The notes beneath the pieces are model-generated. The model was not told where the DNA came from and ran no database searches. It was given only the letters and a program-made list of their open reading frames with translations. From Bacteroidaceae bacterium (lineage in GTDB: Bacteria > Bacteroidota > Bacteroidia > Bacteroidales > Bacteroidaceae): DNA of 40,591 nucleotides. Positions 6,596 to 38,887 of this stretch are shown here, piece by piece (position 1 is the stretch's first letter; every line of letters begins with the position of its first letter). The stretch spans positions 1-40,591 of the forward strand of contig JAFRQD010000041.1 in assembly GCA_017428785.1 (NCBI GenBank), read 5' to 3'. The translations under genes and the position numbers were made by a program.

Positions 6596-6910
6596 TGTAA
6601 AGATTTTTCCTTGGCAGACGCTTTCTGACGGCCTGTTTTTGTTTCTGTGGCACTTTTCTACTCCCGAGGCGAAATAAGGGCTTAAATCGAATTTTCTATG
6701 GAAATCAAAGGGTTGCAAGGCTGCGTTTTCAGTTGTTTTGCAATGAAAGTACAGGCGTCGCGAGCGATATTGTTAAGTTCTGCATACTTTTCCGCCTATT
6801 TCCGCGTGTGGCGATGCCCAACTTCGCATGGGGCGATTCCAATCGCCGCGTGCAGCGTTTGCCATCGCCACGTGCGGCGTTGACAAACATCGCGTGTGGG
6901 GATGGGCATT
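6596..6910 (+). repeat. Composite dispersed element, copy 2, with 22-bp array
   Basis: Blocks in order are TGTAAAGATTTTTCC (6596), GACGCTTTCTGACG, GTGGCACTTTTCTA, GCTTAAATCGAATTTTCTAT and GGTTGCAAGG (6719). A moderately conserved 80-bp spacer containing TCTGCATA and TTTTCCG follows, then five 22-bp units at 6801, 6823, 6845, 6867 and 6889 with the theme CGCGTGNGGCG. The same order and spacing are found in reverse at 408-717, and a looser version at 13288-13566. Confidence 0.78.
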
Positions 6911-7009: not shown

Positions 7010-9211
7010 CTACGAGATTTGGCTCCAGTCGCGGTGCTCTTTCTTGAGTTCCTGGAGGTGTCGGCGGAGCAGGGTGTTATCCTTTGCCAGCAAGTCGGGG
7101 TCGGCATCGAGGACAAATGTGGCGGTGTCGCGTGCCAGTTGCACCAGTTGTCCGTCGCGTCCGAGATTGGCAAGCTTGAGGTTGAAGGCGATGCCGCTCT
7201 GCTGCGTCCCCTCGAGGTCGCCCGGCCCACGCAGCTTGAGGTCGGCTTCCGCTATCTCGAAGCCATCGTTCGTCTCCGTCATGATTTGCAGGCGCTTGCG
7301 TGTCTCGGCCGACAACTTGTAGTTCGACACGAGGATGCAATACGACTGCTCTGCCCCTCTTCCCACTCTGCCTCGCAGCTGATGCAGCTGCGCAAGGCCA
7401 AAGCGCTCGGCGTTTTGGATTACCATTACCGAGGCATTCGGCACGTTGACGCCGACTTCGATGACGGTTGTGGCGACCAGGATCTGCGTCTCGCCCGACA
7501 CGAACCGCTGCATCTCGACATCCTTTTCGCTGGGCTTCATCTTGCCGTGAACCATGCTTATCCGGTATTGCGGGAAGATTTCCTTGAGGTGCACGAACTC
7601 GTCCTGCACGTTCTTGAGGTCGAGTTTCTCGCTCTCCTTTACAAGGGGGAAGACGAAATAGACTTGGTGCCCTGCCTCTATCTCACGGACTACGCCGCGA
7701 TAGAGCTGCTCGGGCTGGTTGTCGTAGATGTGGATTGTGCGGACTGGCTTGCGTCCTGGCGGCAGTTCGTCGATGATGGACACGTCGAGGTCGCCGTAAA
7801 CGGTCATTGCCAATGTGCGTGGAATGGGCGTGGCGGTCATGACGAGGACGTGAGGACCCACCCCCGACCCCTCTTCAGACCCTCTCCCGGCCTCTCCCTT
7901 GCAGAGAGAGGAGTAATGGCCATCTTTAGTTGTGTCTGCTCCTCTCCCTGCAAGGGAATGGTTGGGAGAGGGTCTTTCCTGCAGTTTCGCCCGTTGCGCC
8001 ACTCCGAAGCGGTGCTGCTCGTCGATGATGACGAGGCCGAGGTTGTTGAACTGCACATTGTCTTCGATGACGGCATGCGTGCCGATCAGGATGTCGATGC
8101 TCCCGTCCAGCAGGCCTTCCTCGATGGCTTTGCGCTTCTTTCCCTTGACGTTGCCGGTCAACAGCTCTACCCGCACCGGCATATCCTTCAGGAAGCCAAG
8201 GAAGGTCTGCAAGTGTTGCTCGGCAAGTATCTCCGTAGGCGCCATGATGCATGTCTGGCAGCCATTGTCGATGGCAATGAGCATGACCATGAGGGCAACG
8301 AGCGTCTTGCCGCTCCCCACATCGCCTTGCAGGAGCCGGTTCATCTGGCGTCCGCTCTTCATGTCGGCATGCATCTCGCGGATGACTCGCTTCTGCGCCT
8401 CAGTCAGCGGGAAAGGCAGATACTTGTGGTAGAAGGTGTTGAAGGCCTCGCCGACCCGCGTGAACCTTTGTCCCACTCGCTCCTGCTGCCGCTTCCGTGC
8501 ATAGGACATGATGACGAGCTGGATGAAAAAGAGCTCCTCGAACTTGAGTCGCATATTGGCGGCTGCAAGCTCGTCGGCCGTAGAAGGGTAGTGTGCTGCA
8601 CGAAGGGCTTTGTCGAGAGGCATGAGGTGGAGTCTCTCGATGAGATACTGCGGCAACGTCTCGGGCAGCGGCCATGTGAGTTTGCTGAAGAGCGTGCTTG
8701 TGAACTTCTCCAGCGTGCGCGAGGTCATGCCCGCCTTCTTCATGCGGTCCGTCGTGCTGTAGTAGGGCTGCATGCTCATCTTGCTGAGCGTCATCGTCTC
8801 GGGCTTGTCGAGGTCGGGATGAATGACGCTCAATCTGCCTCCGTAAACGCCGGGACGCCCGAAGAGGATATAGTCCTGTCGCAGCTTCACGCTCTTCTTG
8901 ATGTAGCTGATGCCGTGAAACCAGGTGACGTCGAGGAACATCTCGCCGTCCCAGAAGTGTCCCGTCAGCCGGTGCTTTCTGCCTTGTCCGGCCTCCTCGA
9001 AGCTGAGGAACTGCCCCAAGACCTGCACGAAAGGCATTTCGGTGGTCAGCTCCTTAATCTTGTAAAGGCGGCTGCGGTCGATGTGCTTGTAGGGGAAGGT
9101 GTACAACAAGTCGCGCCAGGTCTTGATGCCCAGCTCAGCCTCCAGCATCTTTGCCCTTTGCGGACCGATGCCAGGGAGGTAGGTGATGGCTTGTTGGCGC
9201 AAGTCTTCCAT
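7010..9211 (-). CDS. recG: ATP-dependent DNA helicase RecG with an in-frame palindromic insert
   Basis: RecG drives regression and branch migration of stalled forks and Holliday junctions. The 733-residue product has the N-terminal wedge (OB) domain (about 50-150), Walker A GDVGSGKT at 296-303, APTEILAEQH (324-333), DEQH at 397-400, TATPIPRT at 459-466, QLRGRVGRG and a normal C-terminus. Oddity: residues about 413-452 (rich in Ser, Gly, Arg, Lys) separate the DEQHRFGVAQRAKL segment from PHVLVMTATP. In other RecG proteins these segments are only a few residues apart. The insert is encoded by a 97-bp inverted-repeat element plus flanks and keeps the frame open. Whether the helicase stays active is unknown. 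The start overlaps the ispD stop as TAATG. Confidence 0.95.
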   Translation of the reverse strand: MEDLRQQAITYLPGIGPQRAKMLEAELGIKTWRDLLYTFPYKHIDRSRLYKIKELTTEMPFVQVLGQFLSFEEAGQGRKHRLTGHFWDGEMFLDVTWFHGISYIKKSVKLRQDYILFGRPGVYGGRLSVIHPDLDKPETMTLSKMSMQPYYSTTDRMKKAGMTSRTLEKFTSTLFSKLTWPLPETLPQYLIERLHLMPLDKALRAAHYPSTADELAAANMRLKFEELFFIQLVIMSYARKRQQERVGQRFTRVGEAFNTFYHKYLPFPLTEAQKRVIREMHADMKSGRQMNRLLQGDVGSGKTLVALMVMLIAIDNGCQTCIMAPTEILAEQHLQTFLGFLKDMPVRVELLTGNVKGKKRKAIEEGLLDGSIDILIGTHAVIEDNVQFNNLGLVIIDEQHRFGVAQRAKLQERPSPNHSLAGRGADTTKDGHYSSLCKGEAGRGSEEGSGVGPHVLVMTATPIPRTLAMTVYGDLDVSIIDELPPGRKPVRTIHIYDNQPEQLYRGVVREIEAGHQVYFVFPLVKESEKLDLKNVQDEFVHLKEIFPQYRISMVHGKMKPSEKDVEMQRFVSGETQILVATTVIEVGVNVPNASVMVIQNAERFGLAQLHQLRGRVGRGAEQSYCILVSNYKLSAETRKRLQIMTETNDGFEIAEADLKLRGPGDLEGTQQSGIAFNLKLANLGRDGQLVQLARDTATFVLDADPDLLAKDNTLLRRHLQELKKEHRDWSQIS
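7878..7974. repeat. 97-bp palindromic element inside recG
   Basis: Two 36-bp arms (7878-7913 and 7939-7974) are inverted copies with 31 of 36 positions identical, around a 25-bp spacer. Arms start and end with GACCCTCTCCC/GGGAGAGGGTC and contain CCCTTGCAG. It is translated as part of RecG (residues about 413-445) without a stop codon. Similar CTCTCCCTGCAGGG-type palindromes are common intergenic repeats in many bacteria, so this looks like such an element that landed in a gene. Confidence 0.88.
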
Positions 9212-21346: not shown

Positions 21347-21350
21347 TTTG

Positions 21351-21358
21351 TATTTTTG
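21351..21358 (+). promoter_or_regulatory. -7 box for typA
   Basis: TATTTTTG matches TAnnTTTG. The start site should be near 21365, about 25 nt before the ATG at 21390. It supports that ATG over the TTG at 21348, which would lie upstream of the transcript. Confidence 0.55.
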
Positions 21359-21389
21359 CCGCCGAAAAGTAAAGATACGAACAAAAGGT

Positions 21390-23192
21390 ATGCAAAGCAT
21401 CAGGAATATAGCAATTATTGCACATGTCGATCATGGCAAAACAACACTGGTAGATAAGATGTTGCTGGCGGGGAATCTTTTTCGCGAGAACCAGCAGACA
21501 GGAGAGCTTATGCTCGACAACAACGAACTGGAAAGAGAGCGAGGCATCACCATCCTCTCCAAGAACGTCAGCATTAACTATAAGGACACGAAGATAAACA
21601 TCATTGATACGCCGGGACACAGCGATTTCGGTGGCGAGGTGGAGCGCGTCCTGAACATGGCAGACGGCTGTTTGCTTCTTGTGGATGCTTTCGAAGGCCC
21701 TATGCCGCAGACGCGTTTCGTTCTGCAGAAAGCCCTGCAGATTGGCCTTAAGCCCGTAGTTGTCATCAATAAGGTGGACAAGCCCAACTGCCGTCCCGAA
21801 GAGGTTTACGAGATGGTGTTCGACCTGATGTGCGACCTCGATGCGACTGAGGACCAGCTCGATTTCCCCGTCATTTACGGCTCTGCAAAGCAGGGGTGGA
21901 TGGCTGAGGACTGGCAGACACCAACTCAGGACATCACTTATCTGCTGGATTGCATCCTCAAATACATTCCCGGGCCAGAGATACTTGAAGGCACGCCGCA
22001 GATGCTCATCACGAGTCTCGACTATAGTACCTATACAGGGCGCATTGCCGTGGGGCGCGTACATCGGGGCACGCTTCGGGAGGGCATGAACATCACCATT
22101 GCCCATCGCAATGGCCAGATGGAAAAGACGAAGATCAAGGAGCTCCACACCTTCACGGGTATGGGCCGACAGAAGACTTCGGAGGTCAGCTCGGGCGACA
22201 TCTGTGCGATTGTTGGCTTGGAGCGCTTCGAGATTGGCGACACGCTTTGCGACTTCGAGAATCCCGAGCCTCTGCCTCCCATCAGTATCGACGAGCCCAC
22301 GATGTCCATGCTCTTTACCATCAACGACTCGCCCTTCTTCGGAAAGGAAGGCAAGTATTGCACGAGCCGTCACATCGGTGACCGTCTGGAGCGCGAACTA
22401 GAGAAGAACCTTGCCCTGCGCGTTGAGGTGCCCGAGGGTTATACGGACCGCTGGATTGTGTCGGGTAGGGGAGTCCTGCACCTCTCTGTCCTCATCGAGA
22501 CCATGCGTCGCGAGGGGTACGAACTGCAGGTCGGTCAGCCACAAGTGATATATAAGGAGATAGATGGCGTGAAGTGCGAACCCATCGAAGAGATGACGAT
22601 TAACGTGCCCGAGGAGTTCGCCTCGAAGATGATCGATATGGTGACGCGCCGCAAGGGCGAGATGACAAGCATGGAGAGCCAGGGCGACCGCGTCAACATC
22701 GAGTTCCTCATCCCTTCCCGCGGCATCATTGGCTTGCGCACGAACATGCTTACAGCCAGTCAGGGCGAGGCCATCATCGCACATCGTTTCAAGGAATACC
22801 AGCCCTACAAAGGCGACATCAACCGCCGCGTAAACGGCTCCCTGATTGCTTTGGAAAGCGGCAACGCTTATGCCTATGCCATCGACCATTTGCAGGACAG
22901 AGGACGCTTCTTTATCGAGCCTCAGGACCAGGTCTATGCAGGGCAGGTTGTTGGCGAGCATGTTCACGAGAACGACATCGTCATCAACGTCTGCAAGGCC
23001 AAGCAGCTCACCAACGTTCGCGCAAGCGGCACCGACGAGAAGGCGCACATCATCCCAGCCACCATCTTCTCACTGGAAGAGGCCCTCGAGTACATCAAGG
23101 CCGATGAATATGTAGAGGTAACGCCCAAGAGCATGCGCATGCGTAAGATTATCCTCGACCATCTGGAGAGGAAGAGGGCGAACAAAGAGTAA
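21390..23192 (+). CDS. typA: Ribosome-associated GTPase TypA/BipA
   Basis: This 600-residue translational GTPase is involved in ribosome assembly and stress or cold adaptation. It has G1 AHVDHGKTT (residues 9-17), switch I RERGITI, intact switch [13 protein letters not shown] with the catalytic His, and G4 NKVDKP. Domains II, III, V and the BipA-specific C-terminal domain follow ([37 protein letters not shown]). It provides a useful contrast to the EF-G2-like protein, where the same His is Ser. A start 14 codons upstream (TTG at 21348) is rejected because the -7 box overlaps it. Confidence 0.95.
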
Positions 23193-23195
23193 GGA

Positions 23196-23323
23196 CCCCC
23201 CAACCCCCTTTAGGGGGAGTTCTTAATGTTACAGTCATGAAGAAATATCTTTTTGCATTCCTATTATCTGTCAGTTCCTCTATATGTTGCGGGGAAATAC
23301 TCCCCCTAAAGGGGGCTGGGGGG
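23196..23323. repeat. 128-bp inverted-repeat element spanning the start of the next gene
   Basis: The arms are 23196-23220 and 23299-23323, with 24 of 25 positions complementary. Each contains the small palindrome CCCCCTTTAGGGGG. The 78-bp centre contains the start codon and signal-peptide codons of the following gene. The right arm is translated as ILPLKGAG, just after the signal peptide. TypA ends four bases before the left arm. Confidence 0.85.
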
Positions 23324-25093
23324 GCTTCCTCCCTTGTTGCCATCGACAATCTTGGCCGCACTTTGCCCACCGCCGAGGAATGCCCGCTCAAGACTGACAA
23401 GCCGCGGACTGTGGGCATTTTCTATATCACGTGGCATACCCAAAACCTTCACAACGGACAGCCCTACACCTACGATGTGACGAAGTTGCTCGAGGAGAAT
23501 CCGATGCGCACGAAGGGCGAGCCGGACTTCCCCTACGCCACTTATCATTGGGGCGAACCCGAATACGGCTACTTCCTCAGCCAGGACAAATACGTCTGCT
23601 TCCACGACCTCTCGATGCTGGCCGATGCGGGTGTTGACGTACTCATCATGGACGTCACAAACGCCGTCTGCTATTGGGACGAGTGGGAGGTCCTGTTCAC
23701 AACCATGCAAGAGATGAAGGCCCTTGGCAACAAGGTGCCCAAGTTCTGCTTCTGGGCGTTCAATGGCAATGTGATAGACGTCGTTCAGAGCCTATACGAA
23801 CGCTTCTACAAGACGCCTCGCTACCAGGACTGCTGGTTCTATTGGGATGGCAAGCCATTGCTGCTTTACAACGCCACACCCTCTGTTGATGCCAATCCCA
23901 ATGGCGGACAAAAGGGCAAGACGGACTACAGCGACGAAGTGAAAGCGTTCTTCACCTTGAGGAATATGTGGTGGGGCTACAAGAGTTGGGCTGGAGCACC
24001 CTATGTGGGAGGCGAGGACAAGTGGAGCTTCGGCTACGAGATGAACGACAAGAATGTGGCAGCCCTCAAGCCCGAAGAGTTGTGCTCCAAGCATCAGGGA
24101 CGCCTCGAAGAGATGGCAGTCACGCCTGCACAACACCCAATCAGCATTACCGGAAAGAGTTGGCGACGCGAGACATTGGAGCCGGAACTTGACGGAAAAG
24201 ACATGCCAAGTCGTGCCTTCGTGCCCTGGCTTGGTGTGGAAAAGGAGAATCCCACGCAGTACGGCATTTATTTCCAGGACCGCTGGGACGAGGCGCTTCA
24301 AGTTGACCCAGACTTCATCTACCTCAACGACTGGAACGAGTGGACGGCAGGCAAGTACCGGAACGGCAAAGACCCGTCTGGACAGGCCGATATGCACATC
24401 GATTTCCTCGGCAGGAAGGAGAATCCTTTCTACTTTGTGGACCAGTACAATGCTGAGTTCAACAGGACCATCGCGCCCATGAAAGGCGGCTGGACGGACA
24501 ACTACTACATGCAGATGGTCCAGAACATCCGTCGCTATAAAGGCGTTGCGCCCATGCCCGTACACCGTGGCTATCAGCAGATTACGCTCGACGGGAAGCT
24601 CGACGAATGGCAGCCCGACAGCTGTTTCCTCGACACCCGTGGCGACGTCATCCATCGCGACCACAACGGCTACGGCGACCTGCACTACACCGACAATACC
24701 GGCCGTAACGACATCGTGCGATGCCTTGTGGCAGTCGACAAGAAGAACATCTACTTTGCAGCCGAGACAGCTCAGCCGCTCACGCCCAGCACAGACCCGA
24801 ATTGGATGTTGCTCTACATCGACACCGACGAGGACGGGAAATATGACATCGGAATCCAAGATTTTAGACTGGTTACTCCGAAGTTCGAGAAAGACTGGGA
24901 TGTTGCGGTAGGGGAGAGGTGCGTCGAGGTGGCCATCCCGCGCAAGTTGCTCGGCAAGACGGGAAAGCGTTTCAGCCTGTCGTTCAAGTGGGCCGACAAT
25001 CCCACCCTTCCGGGCGACATCATCTCCGTCTCCACCACCGGCGACACCGCACCCAACCGCCGCTTTGCCTATCGCTTCGTGTGGGAAAAGTAA
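23237..25093 (+). CDS. Secreted GH71/GH99-like glycosidase with C-terminal CBM9-like domain
   Basis: This 618-residue protein has a signal peptide (MKKYLFAFLLSVSSS) followed by CCG. A lipobox is not canonical, so secretion versus lipidation is unclear. The main domain (about 50-450) has TVGIFYITWHTQ, HWGEPEYGYFLSQD, LADAGVDVLIMDVTNAV, KFCFWAFNGN and YLNDWNEWTAGKY. These are features I associate with the GH99/GH71-like TIM-barrel group of Bacteroidetes, whose members act on alpha-linked glycans. Residues about 460-618 (ITLDGKLDEWQPDS, WMLLYIDTDEDGKYDIG) resemble a CBM9-type carbohydrate-binding domain. The substrate is unknown. Its start is embedded in an inverted repeat, and it lies upstream of the GH92 gene but 900 bp apart. 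Confidence 0.78.
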   Translation: MKKYLFAFLLSVSSSICCGEILPLKGAGGASSLVAIDNLGRTLPTAEECPLKTDKPRTVGIFYITWHTQNLHNGQPYTYDVTKLLEENPMRTKGEPDFPYATYHWGEPEYGYFLSQDKYVCFHDLSMLADAGVDVLIMDVTNAVCYWDEWEVLFTTMQEMKALGNKVPKFCFWAFNGNVIDVVQSLYERFYKTPRYQDCWFYWDGKPLLLYNATPSVDANPNGGQKGKTDYSDEVKAFFTLRNMWWGYKSWAGAPYVGGEDKWSFGYEMNDKNVAALKPEELCSKHQGRLEEMAVTPAQHPISITGKSWRRETLEPELDGKDMPSRAFVPWLGVEKENPTQYGIYFQDRWDEALQVDPDFIYLNDWNEWTAGKYRNGKDPSGQADMHIDFLGRKENPFYFVDQYNAEFNRTIAPMKGGWTDNYYMQMVQNIRRYKGVAPMPVHRGYQQITLDGKLDEWQPDSCFLDTRGDVIHRDHNGYGDLHYTDNTGRNDIVRCLVAVDKKNIYFAAETAQPLTPSTDPNWMLLYIDTDEDGKYDIGIQDFRLVTPKFEKDWDVAVGERCVEVAIPRKLLGKTGKRFSLSFKWADNPTLPGDIISVSTTGDTAPNRRFAYRFVWEK

Positions 25094-25531: not shown

Positions 25532-25860
25532 ATTGGTGTCCGATAAAAATATTTCATTATCTCCTGCACCCTCCTAACCATCGGCATTTAGAGCAAAATG
25601 TGATGGGCAGGGGCTTAGGAAATGCAATGATGTAAAAAAGCCTGGAAGGCTTCACTATGAGGACACCAGCTTTGCTGCCTGACCGAAGGGAAGAACCGTG
25701 GGCTTCGCCCTCGGACAGAACATATAGAGCACCTCCTCCGCTCCTGCCTGGAAGGCAGTACACTGGCCTCTCATAGTACTGCCCTCCAGGCAAAGGGGAG
25801 CAAGTTATCGGCTGATTCCGAGGGCTTCGCCCCCCGGTTACTCAAAGTAAAGCCCTACAG
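25532..25860 (-). repeat. Mosaic stem-loop element, copy 2
   Basis: Reverse-complemented, 25532-25601 matches 34130-34214, sharing CCTAACCATCGGCATTTAGA on the plus strand here and TGTCCGATAAAA/TTTACCGGACA at the end. The block at about 25641-25770 matches 1-120 in reverse. Short hairpins such as GCCTGGAAGGC and ACTGCCCTCCAGGCA recur. The 25860 end is approximate. Confidence 0.72.
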
Positions 25861-33910: not shown

Positions 33911-34220
33911 ATCTTTTATTGTTGTCCGTTTAATCCGGCCTGAAAGGCCATTAAGATGTCAGCCCAGGGCATCGCCCTGGGTTTATGACGCAGAAGTAGA
34001 TTCCGCCCTAAAGGGGCAAAAGCTTTGTGTTTTAGTGCTTTTGCTCTTACAGAGCGTCATTTGCTGCGGCATCTCAACACCCAGGGCGATGCCCTGGGCT
34101 GACATCTTTCTGCCCCTTTGGGGCGTCCCAAGCCCCTGCCAATCTCATCTTGCTCTAAATGCCGATGGTTAGGAGGGTGCAGGTAATGATGAAAAATTTT
34201 TACCGGACAGCAATAATCTT
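33911..34220. repeat. Mosaic stem-loop element, copy 3 (most complete)
   Basis: The ends carry inverted versions of TATTGYTGTCCG (33917-33928 and, in reverse, near 34203-34215). Inside, a perfect 30-bp inverted pair (33953-33982 and 34079-34108) holds CCCAGGGCATCGCCCTGGG, itself a hairpin. Others are GGCCTGAAAGGCC (33937-33949) and GCCCCTTTGGGGC. The right 85 bp match 25532-25601 in reverse. It appears non-coding. Confidence 0.78.
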
Positions 34221-38722: not shown

Positions 38723-38799
38723 GTATTATTTTATATTTTTTATTGAAGAACGAAAGGTTCTCATTTTGGCCTTGATTTTGCCCTCAGGAGGGGGTGTAA

Positions 38800-38887
38800 A
38801 ACGCCGCGTGCGGGGATTGCCAACGCCGCGTGCGGGGATTGCCATCGCCGCAGCCGGAAATGACCAACGCCGCAGGCGGCGTTTTGA
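38800..38887 (+). repeat. 22-bp-period array, four units
   Basis: Units starting AACGCCGCGTGCGG lie at 38800 and 38822, followed by ATCGCCGCAGCCGG at 38844 and AACGCCGCAGGCGG at 38866. All are exactly 22 bp apart. The array occupies most of the gap between the importer operon promoter and the valS stop codon. Confidence 0.78.

Follow-up and report, generated by a model that had tools for sequence, protein, structure and literature searches.

A dispersed palindromic element inserted in frame in recG and other genes of a Bacteroidaceae bacterium

The recG gene of a Bacteroidaceae bacterium (assembly GCA_017428785.1) carries a palindromic insert, and we put the probability at about 0.85 that this insert represents a single copy of a dispersed element that lands in genes as well as in intergenic DNA, the in-gene survivors having been selected. 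Judged from the sequence, a palindrome that looks mobile and occurs commonly in genes of this family has truly inserted in frame in recG. The element forms a multicopy family; its sites are element-free in relatives, the reading frame is retained, the reading phase is free and pairing between the arms is conserved.

The palindromic insert in recG

In the window, the 40,591-nt stretch of DNA analysed here (contig JAFRQD010000041.1), recG is an open reading frame of 733 aa on the minus strand (7010..9211) encoding an ATP-dependent DNA helicase, as assigned from the ORF list, Pfam domains and matches to 1GM5 and 9WM0. The frame is intact from its start side at 9211 to its end at 7010 and contains the Pfam domains RecG_wedge, DEAD, Helicase_C and RecG_dom3_C. 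Comparison with relatives located additional length (net +35 residues) in codons 413-452 (7856-7975, minus strand). An inverted-repeat search yielded two palindrome arms of 37 nt, left (7877..7913) and right (7939..7975) on the plus strand, around a loop (7914..7938) that differs from copy to copy according to the copy consensus; no strand is assigned to arms or loop. The palindrome totals 99 nt, with arms that are 86% complementary and a spacer of 25 nt. The inverted repeat described in the sequence-only reading (36-nt arms, 31/36 complementary) is therefore real, and its claim of in-frame read-through holds as well, given the unbroken ORF of 733 aa.

The element span (7876-7976) scores 101 bits against the family covariance model. 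Adjoining the full element is a lone extra arm fragment, GGACCCACCCCCGACCCCTC (7854-7873, no strand assigned), recognised from the sequence and from BLAST matches, which is 95-100% identical to arm ends at four other places of the host genome (C37, C24, C67 and C56) and may be left over from an earlier copy. Codons 413-452 span the palindrome and most of this fragment. The pattern CTCTCCCTNNNAGGGAGAG, with up to three mismatches allowed, occurs twice in the window, once per arm, at an expectation of 0.18; two occurrences were reached in 2/100 shuffles. Folding of the coding strand yields -79.2 kcal/mol, whereas 200 dinucleotide shuffles average -50.4 (z -6.75) and none of them was equally stable. 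The recG copy of the element is known from the GCA_017428785.1 assembly alone.

The insert lies between helicase motifs II and III, where the distance from DEQH to TATP is 62 residues in the window RecG versus the usual 27; by landing here, the element would have added 35 residues. The sequence-only reading had rightly noted extra residues between these motifs, and its figure of about 40 has to be lowered to this net gain. Among 80 recG loci taken from the genome collection, the spacing is 27 in 71, 26 in two and longer in seven (35, 35, 35, 38, 51, 52 and 72). The locus with spacing 51 (L130) has a different palindrome of related type at the insert spot, and other repetitive-looking inserts occupy the linkers of L132, L140 and L142, being AT-rich in L132 and L142 and GGGGCAAGGAGCA-rich in L140. 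A further 29 recG loci from whole genomes, a set overlapping the 80, gave 27 in 25 loci, 26 in L033, 40 in L028 and 38 in L029, with L054, which has SATP instead of TATP, left unscored. A non-palindromic linker of matching length is thus not general among relatives, given that 71/80 are short and at least one of the seven longer linkers holds another palindrome. Because varied inserts occur at one spot in relatives, the recG linker is a target for repeats.

In the alignment with 1GM5, the two matched blocks lie five residues apart in the solved RecG (one ending at chain residue 512, the next starting at 518), where the window RecG goes from 412 to 454. The window RecG retains every motif residue found invariant across 29 relatives, which makes a tolerated loop the simplest reading. 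The insert is most likely a tolerated surface loop that is near-neutral for RecG, its position being taken from the 1GM5 sequence alignment. With these residues kept, nothing points to the altered RecG activity that had been proposed. The nearest records come from uncultured Prevotellaceae and Bacteroidaceae, many of rumen and gut origin.

A dispersed family with copies inside genes

BLAST with the recG element returned 26 rows in the host genome, the arms matching other genomic copies over about 100-120 nt at 73-76% (E as low as 5e-15), and the element was also matched in other genera. A covariance model built from six full copies gave 82 rows in the host genome (both strands, E up to 10), corresponding to 34 places at E≤0.02; together with three weaker ones (C67b, C63c and C42b), these are the 37 places examined. 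Copies are 67-141 nt long, the element itself being put at about 70-130 bp, and consist of two inverted half-units, each with its own short hairpin, around a short variable loop. Related types, distinguished by eye, read in translation as, for instance, RPSPNPSLxGRG/SSPYKGEAGRGS, KTLSNSPLKGE/SPLKGDLEG and ASPSPSKGG/PLEGTGEA. Across diverged copies (57 places from 50 loci, with a single strand counted at each place), pairing held in 92.4% of cells and 36/36 pairs had two-sided changes, compared with 76.3% and 24.8 pairs in shuffles and 46-65% for slid partners, in an alignment that was fitted to the model and leans toward it. The proposal that a copied palindrome entered recG with the frame kept is borne out by this multicopy family, by the absence of the element from recG of the close relatives compared and by the many other in-gene copies.

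Further repeats were observed in the window. A second palindrome matched by the model (23192-23330, 34 bits) starts where a BipA-like ORF (21348-23192) has its stop codon; the following ORF (23237-25093) reads through the right arm of this palindrome immediately past an apparent signal peptide. A weaker match with TGCCTGGAAGGCAGTAC arms (25726-25810, 21 bits, E 0.0015) lies between ORFs. At 6802-6877 and 38798-38885 lie clusters of inverted repeats that have another, CGCCGCGTGCGG-rich motif, and peptides like theirs appear at ORF ends in other host-genome loci. An inverted repeat of another sequence family, with 47-nt arms that are 85% complementary and 96 nt apart, is located at 33936-34125.

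ORFs of at least 100 aa cover 28/37 places in the host genome, so the copies are not mainly intergenic, as the resemblance to intergenic repeats had led the sequence-only reading to expect; two of the 28 (C42a and C67b) are probably covered by chance ORFs. We compared ORF coverage across groups with that of random segments of the same loci, using ORFs of at least 180 aa and 45-nt margins. Coverage was 28/37 in the host genome (random 0.78), 16/24 in genus and order relatives (random 0.75), 18/24 in the family sample (random 0.73) and 4/22 in the phylum sample of other families (random 0.68). Since coverage in this family is close to that of random segments, copies there are not kept out of genes. 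The element-bearing genes, recognised by sequence, presumably include metH, feoB, queG, rpoN, maf, ileS, proA, yidC and mutS2.

Twenty-one of the 28 genes could be aligned to an ortholog from G008, G005 or G012 (C22, C42a, C33b, C2, C9, C67b and C42b were left out), and in 20 of these 21 at least one species lacks the element; for the remaining gene (C36), the sole ortholog compared carries a different palindrome. The net length change is a multiple of three at all 20 sites measured, a result that is partly built in by comparing orthologs that are open frames. The length of the element itself is a multiple of three in just 6/28, which rules out a fixed insert length. Reading phases 0, 1 and 2 are used by 7, 8 and 10 of 25 copies, the count dropping three copies without a recognisable arm start, and copies are read from both strands. 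No target-site duplication was evident at 20 sites, without systematic testing. Between conserved flanks, relatives hold 13-75 nt that are absent from the host genome, the cleanest case being 13 nt in a GH32-like gene (C69). This pattern suggests that target sequence was lost rather than duplicated upon insertion, at linkers that diverge fast.

Three elements are shared with G005, in metH, an ATP-grasp-like gene and ileS, and the metH insertion is present in G476 too (L269). The shared elements (L058, L057 and L107) are 95.8, 94.8 and 100% identical, and their flanks are 84.8/83.5, 74.3/84.8 and 93.0/91.5% identical. Elements more alike than their flanks hint at recent allele transfer: either insertion alleles moved recently between lineages, or the elements change more slowly than the flanks. 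At the metH site where the host genome has the palindrome, G012 (L232) carries an insert of another type that looks tandem (QRTTDNGQQTTDN...). The linker between FeoA and FeoB holds the element in three species (G000, G011 and G019; L059, L088 and L096) and is a second repeat target besides recG. At gene borders, copies in L066 (1501-1628), L111 (1500-1640), L118 (1031-1151) and L064 (1501-1628) seem to give neighbouring ORFs a stop codon or new tails at the N- or C-terminus.

Spread, persistence and alternative explanations

Under the explanation we favour, the element would multiply in the host genome and its relatives, landing within and between genes. Selection would retain copies in tolerant linkers that are stop-free in the frame used and whose net length change keeps the frame, a change that would go along with loss of some native linker sequence at the compared sites. 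The element would spread selfishly, perhaps via a single-stranded hairpin intermediate, and absence of the hairpin nuclease SbcCD may let palindromes persist in this bacterial family, a step with partial support.

REPINs consist of two inverted hairpin units, are dispersed and about 100 bp long, and are linked to RAYT transposases. The short hairpin in each half, the whole length of about 100 bp and the one Y1_Tnp (PF01797) gene in the host genome would suit a REPIN-like doublet, that is, a pair of REP units in inverted orientation that a RAYT/Y1 transposase moves and that here also enters genes. We nevertheless consider this origin unlikely. Y1_Tnp had no match in nine copy-rich genomes with 15-81 model rows, all of them incomplete MAGs (G001, G002, G005, G014, G015, G016, G018, G019 and G020), the element was not found in the fetched flanks of ten Y1_Tnp loci, the host's included (3.3 kb there), and the host locus contains no inverted repeat. 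In addition, the GTAG/CGTC tag is missing at the arm foot in the six-copy consensus, as judged by eye. Mobilisation by Y1 (RAYT) was set aside as improbable, because in these incomplete genomes the presence of Y1_Tnp does not track copy number and the ten loci are free of the element in the flanks fetched. A role at the RNA level, with an mRNA hairpin acting on translation, decay or termination and being selected as RNA, seems less probable still. The very stable fold and the two-sided changes preserving pairing would agree with it, but sites vary between species, many genes are single cases and a DNA copying mode could equally keep the pairing.

The remaining explanations carry little weight. 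A functional protein module, in which the insert is a binding or regulatory loop kept in RecG and other enzymes, would accord with frame retention in many enzymes, yet close species lack the element gene by gene. As three phases and both strands are in use, there is no common peptide, and we rejected the insert as a protein module on these grounds, leaving it very improbable. An assembly or binning artefact is hardly credible: the assembly is fragmented (71 contigs, 84% complete) and the recG copy comes from a single assembly, but same-site copies are present in separate assemblies (metH in G005 and G476; ileS and the ATP-grasp-like gene in G005), and L130 carries its other palindrome at the recG site. 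Palindromes are known to arise by template switching during replication, and the native sequence apparently missing at the sites would be in line with a local palindrome formed without a mobile copy. Against such an origin, the arms have matching copies at other places of the genome, with the E values given above, and in other genera; we assign it a minimal probability, and template switching may still help to keep the arms matched.

E. coli SbcCD removes inverted-repeat structures, the minimum stem being 8-16 bp according to a passage in PMC3733652. The best score for SbcD in the host genome was 21 bits against a cut-off of 77.65. The family sample comprised 151 genomes of at least 85% completeness, plus the host at 84%, and in it the element model matched 43/151 genomes and SbcD 69/151. 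SbcD was present in 7/43 element-bearing versus 62/108 element-free genomes (Fisher p 3.9e-6), that is, missing in 36/43 versus 46/108, counts that contain noise from genes lost in incomplete assemblies. SbcC (TIGR00618, E≤1e-15, none above the curated cut-off) was detected in 68 genomes, all within the 69 SbcD-positive ones. The association persisted when stratified by genus (p 0.0011; 115 genomes with a genus listed). Placing all 36 unlisted genomes, negative for both, into each of ten genera in turn gave p <0.025 for nine of them, with g164 the exception at 0.24. Within genus g18, none of the six listed SbcD-positive genomes has the element and both SbcD-negative ones do. In the phylum sample of 296 genomes, SbcD was found in 7/18 with the element versus 93/278 without (p 0.62), and SbcCD was rejected as a phylum-wide explanation. 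Also counting against the association, three members of the genus (G365, G418 and G442) are without SbcD and without element matches.

The association between SbcD and the element in the family is a lead, no proof. We tentatively propose, at odds below even, that several lineages of this Bacteroidales family lost SbcCD and that their genomes thereby became open to palindromes that invade genes in frame and feed new protein linkers, that of recG included. If true, losing a repair enzyme would bring a continuing supply of new protein linkers.

Comparison with known systems

Rickettsia and Wolbachia are the best-known hosts of in-frame palindromes, and here such palindromes occur in large numbers in bacteria that are common in gut and rumen. 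The genes affected look like recG, ileS, metH, rpoN, yidC and mutS2, and close species differ site by site, which provides natural pairs with and without the element for testing how proteins absorb foreign linkers. The element also offers a testable tie to hairpin repair and would explain why annotated proteins of this family show odd insertions specific to particular lineages. No title among the open-licence literature matches listed concerned in-frame palindromes in Bacteroidota; a 2024 review, in one passage, regards a similar process in other prokaryotes as conceivable (PMC10969869).

Small inverted-repeat elements with intragenic copies recall MITEs and enterobacterial repeat units, described in excerpts of PMC10969869 and PMC2759123 as small non-autonomous inverted repeats that at times form in-frame fusions. 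Unlike MITEs, the element is palindromic over most of its length. At the 20 sites, compared without a systematic test, no target duplication was evident, and the search for a parent insertion sequence, which covered Y1_Tnp, identified none. Intragenic REP elements (GTAG or CGTC tagged), as portrayed in a section of PMC3733652, are inverted repeats, often dimers, in ORFs that include DNA-repair genes, and a REP insertion lies at about the same site of recB in two Xanthomonas. The element shares with them its inverted repeats in ORFs, DNA-repair genes included. It differs in that REP is mostly intergenic in the genomes that this section covers, in contrast to 28/37 under an ORF here, and in the absence of the foot tag. 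REPINs are matched in their two inverted hairpin units, length and dispersal; unlike for REPINs, the link to a Y1 transposase was not found at ten Y1_Tnp loci and copies are common in genes.

The analogy to Rickettsia palindromic elements drawn in the sequence-only reading is apt, as many copies are in frame in genes. RPE and WPE are palindromic repeats of about 100-150 bp that occur in frame in unrelated genes and fall into several groups, with orthologs carrying different groups at an identical or nearby site (passages in PMC3767692 and PMC10969869), and WPE-like inserts are in frame in addA, addB and priA (part of PMC4224334). The element resembles them, in mode of insertion and description, as a dispersed palindrome of matching size with in-gene copies that leave the frame unbroken. 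Each RPE encodes a conserved peptide, as stated in part of the review (PMC10969869); in contrast, the family described here, in another phylum, uses three phases and has no fixed peptide. By analogy, the element appears to work like RPE and WPE, without their fixed frame.
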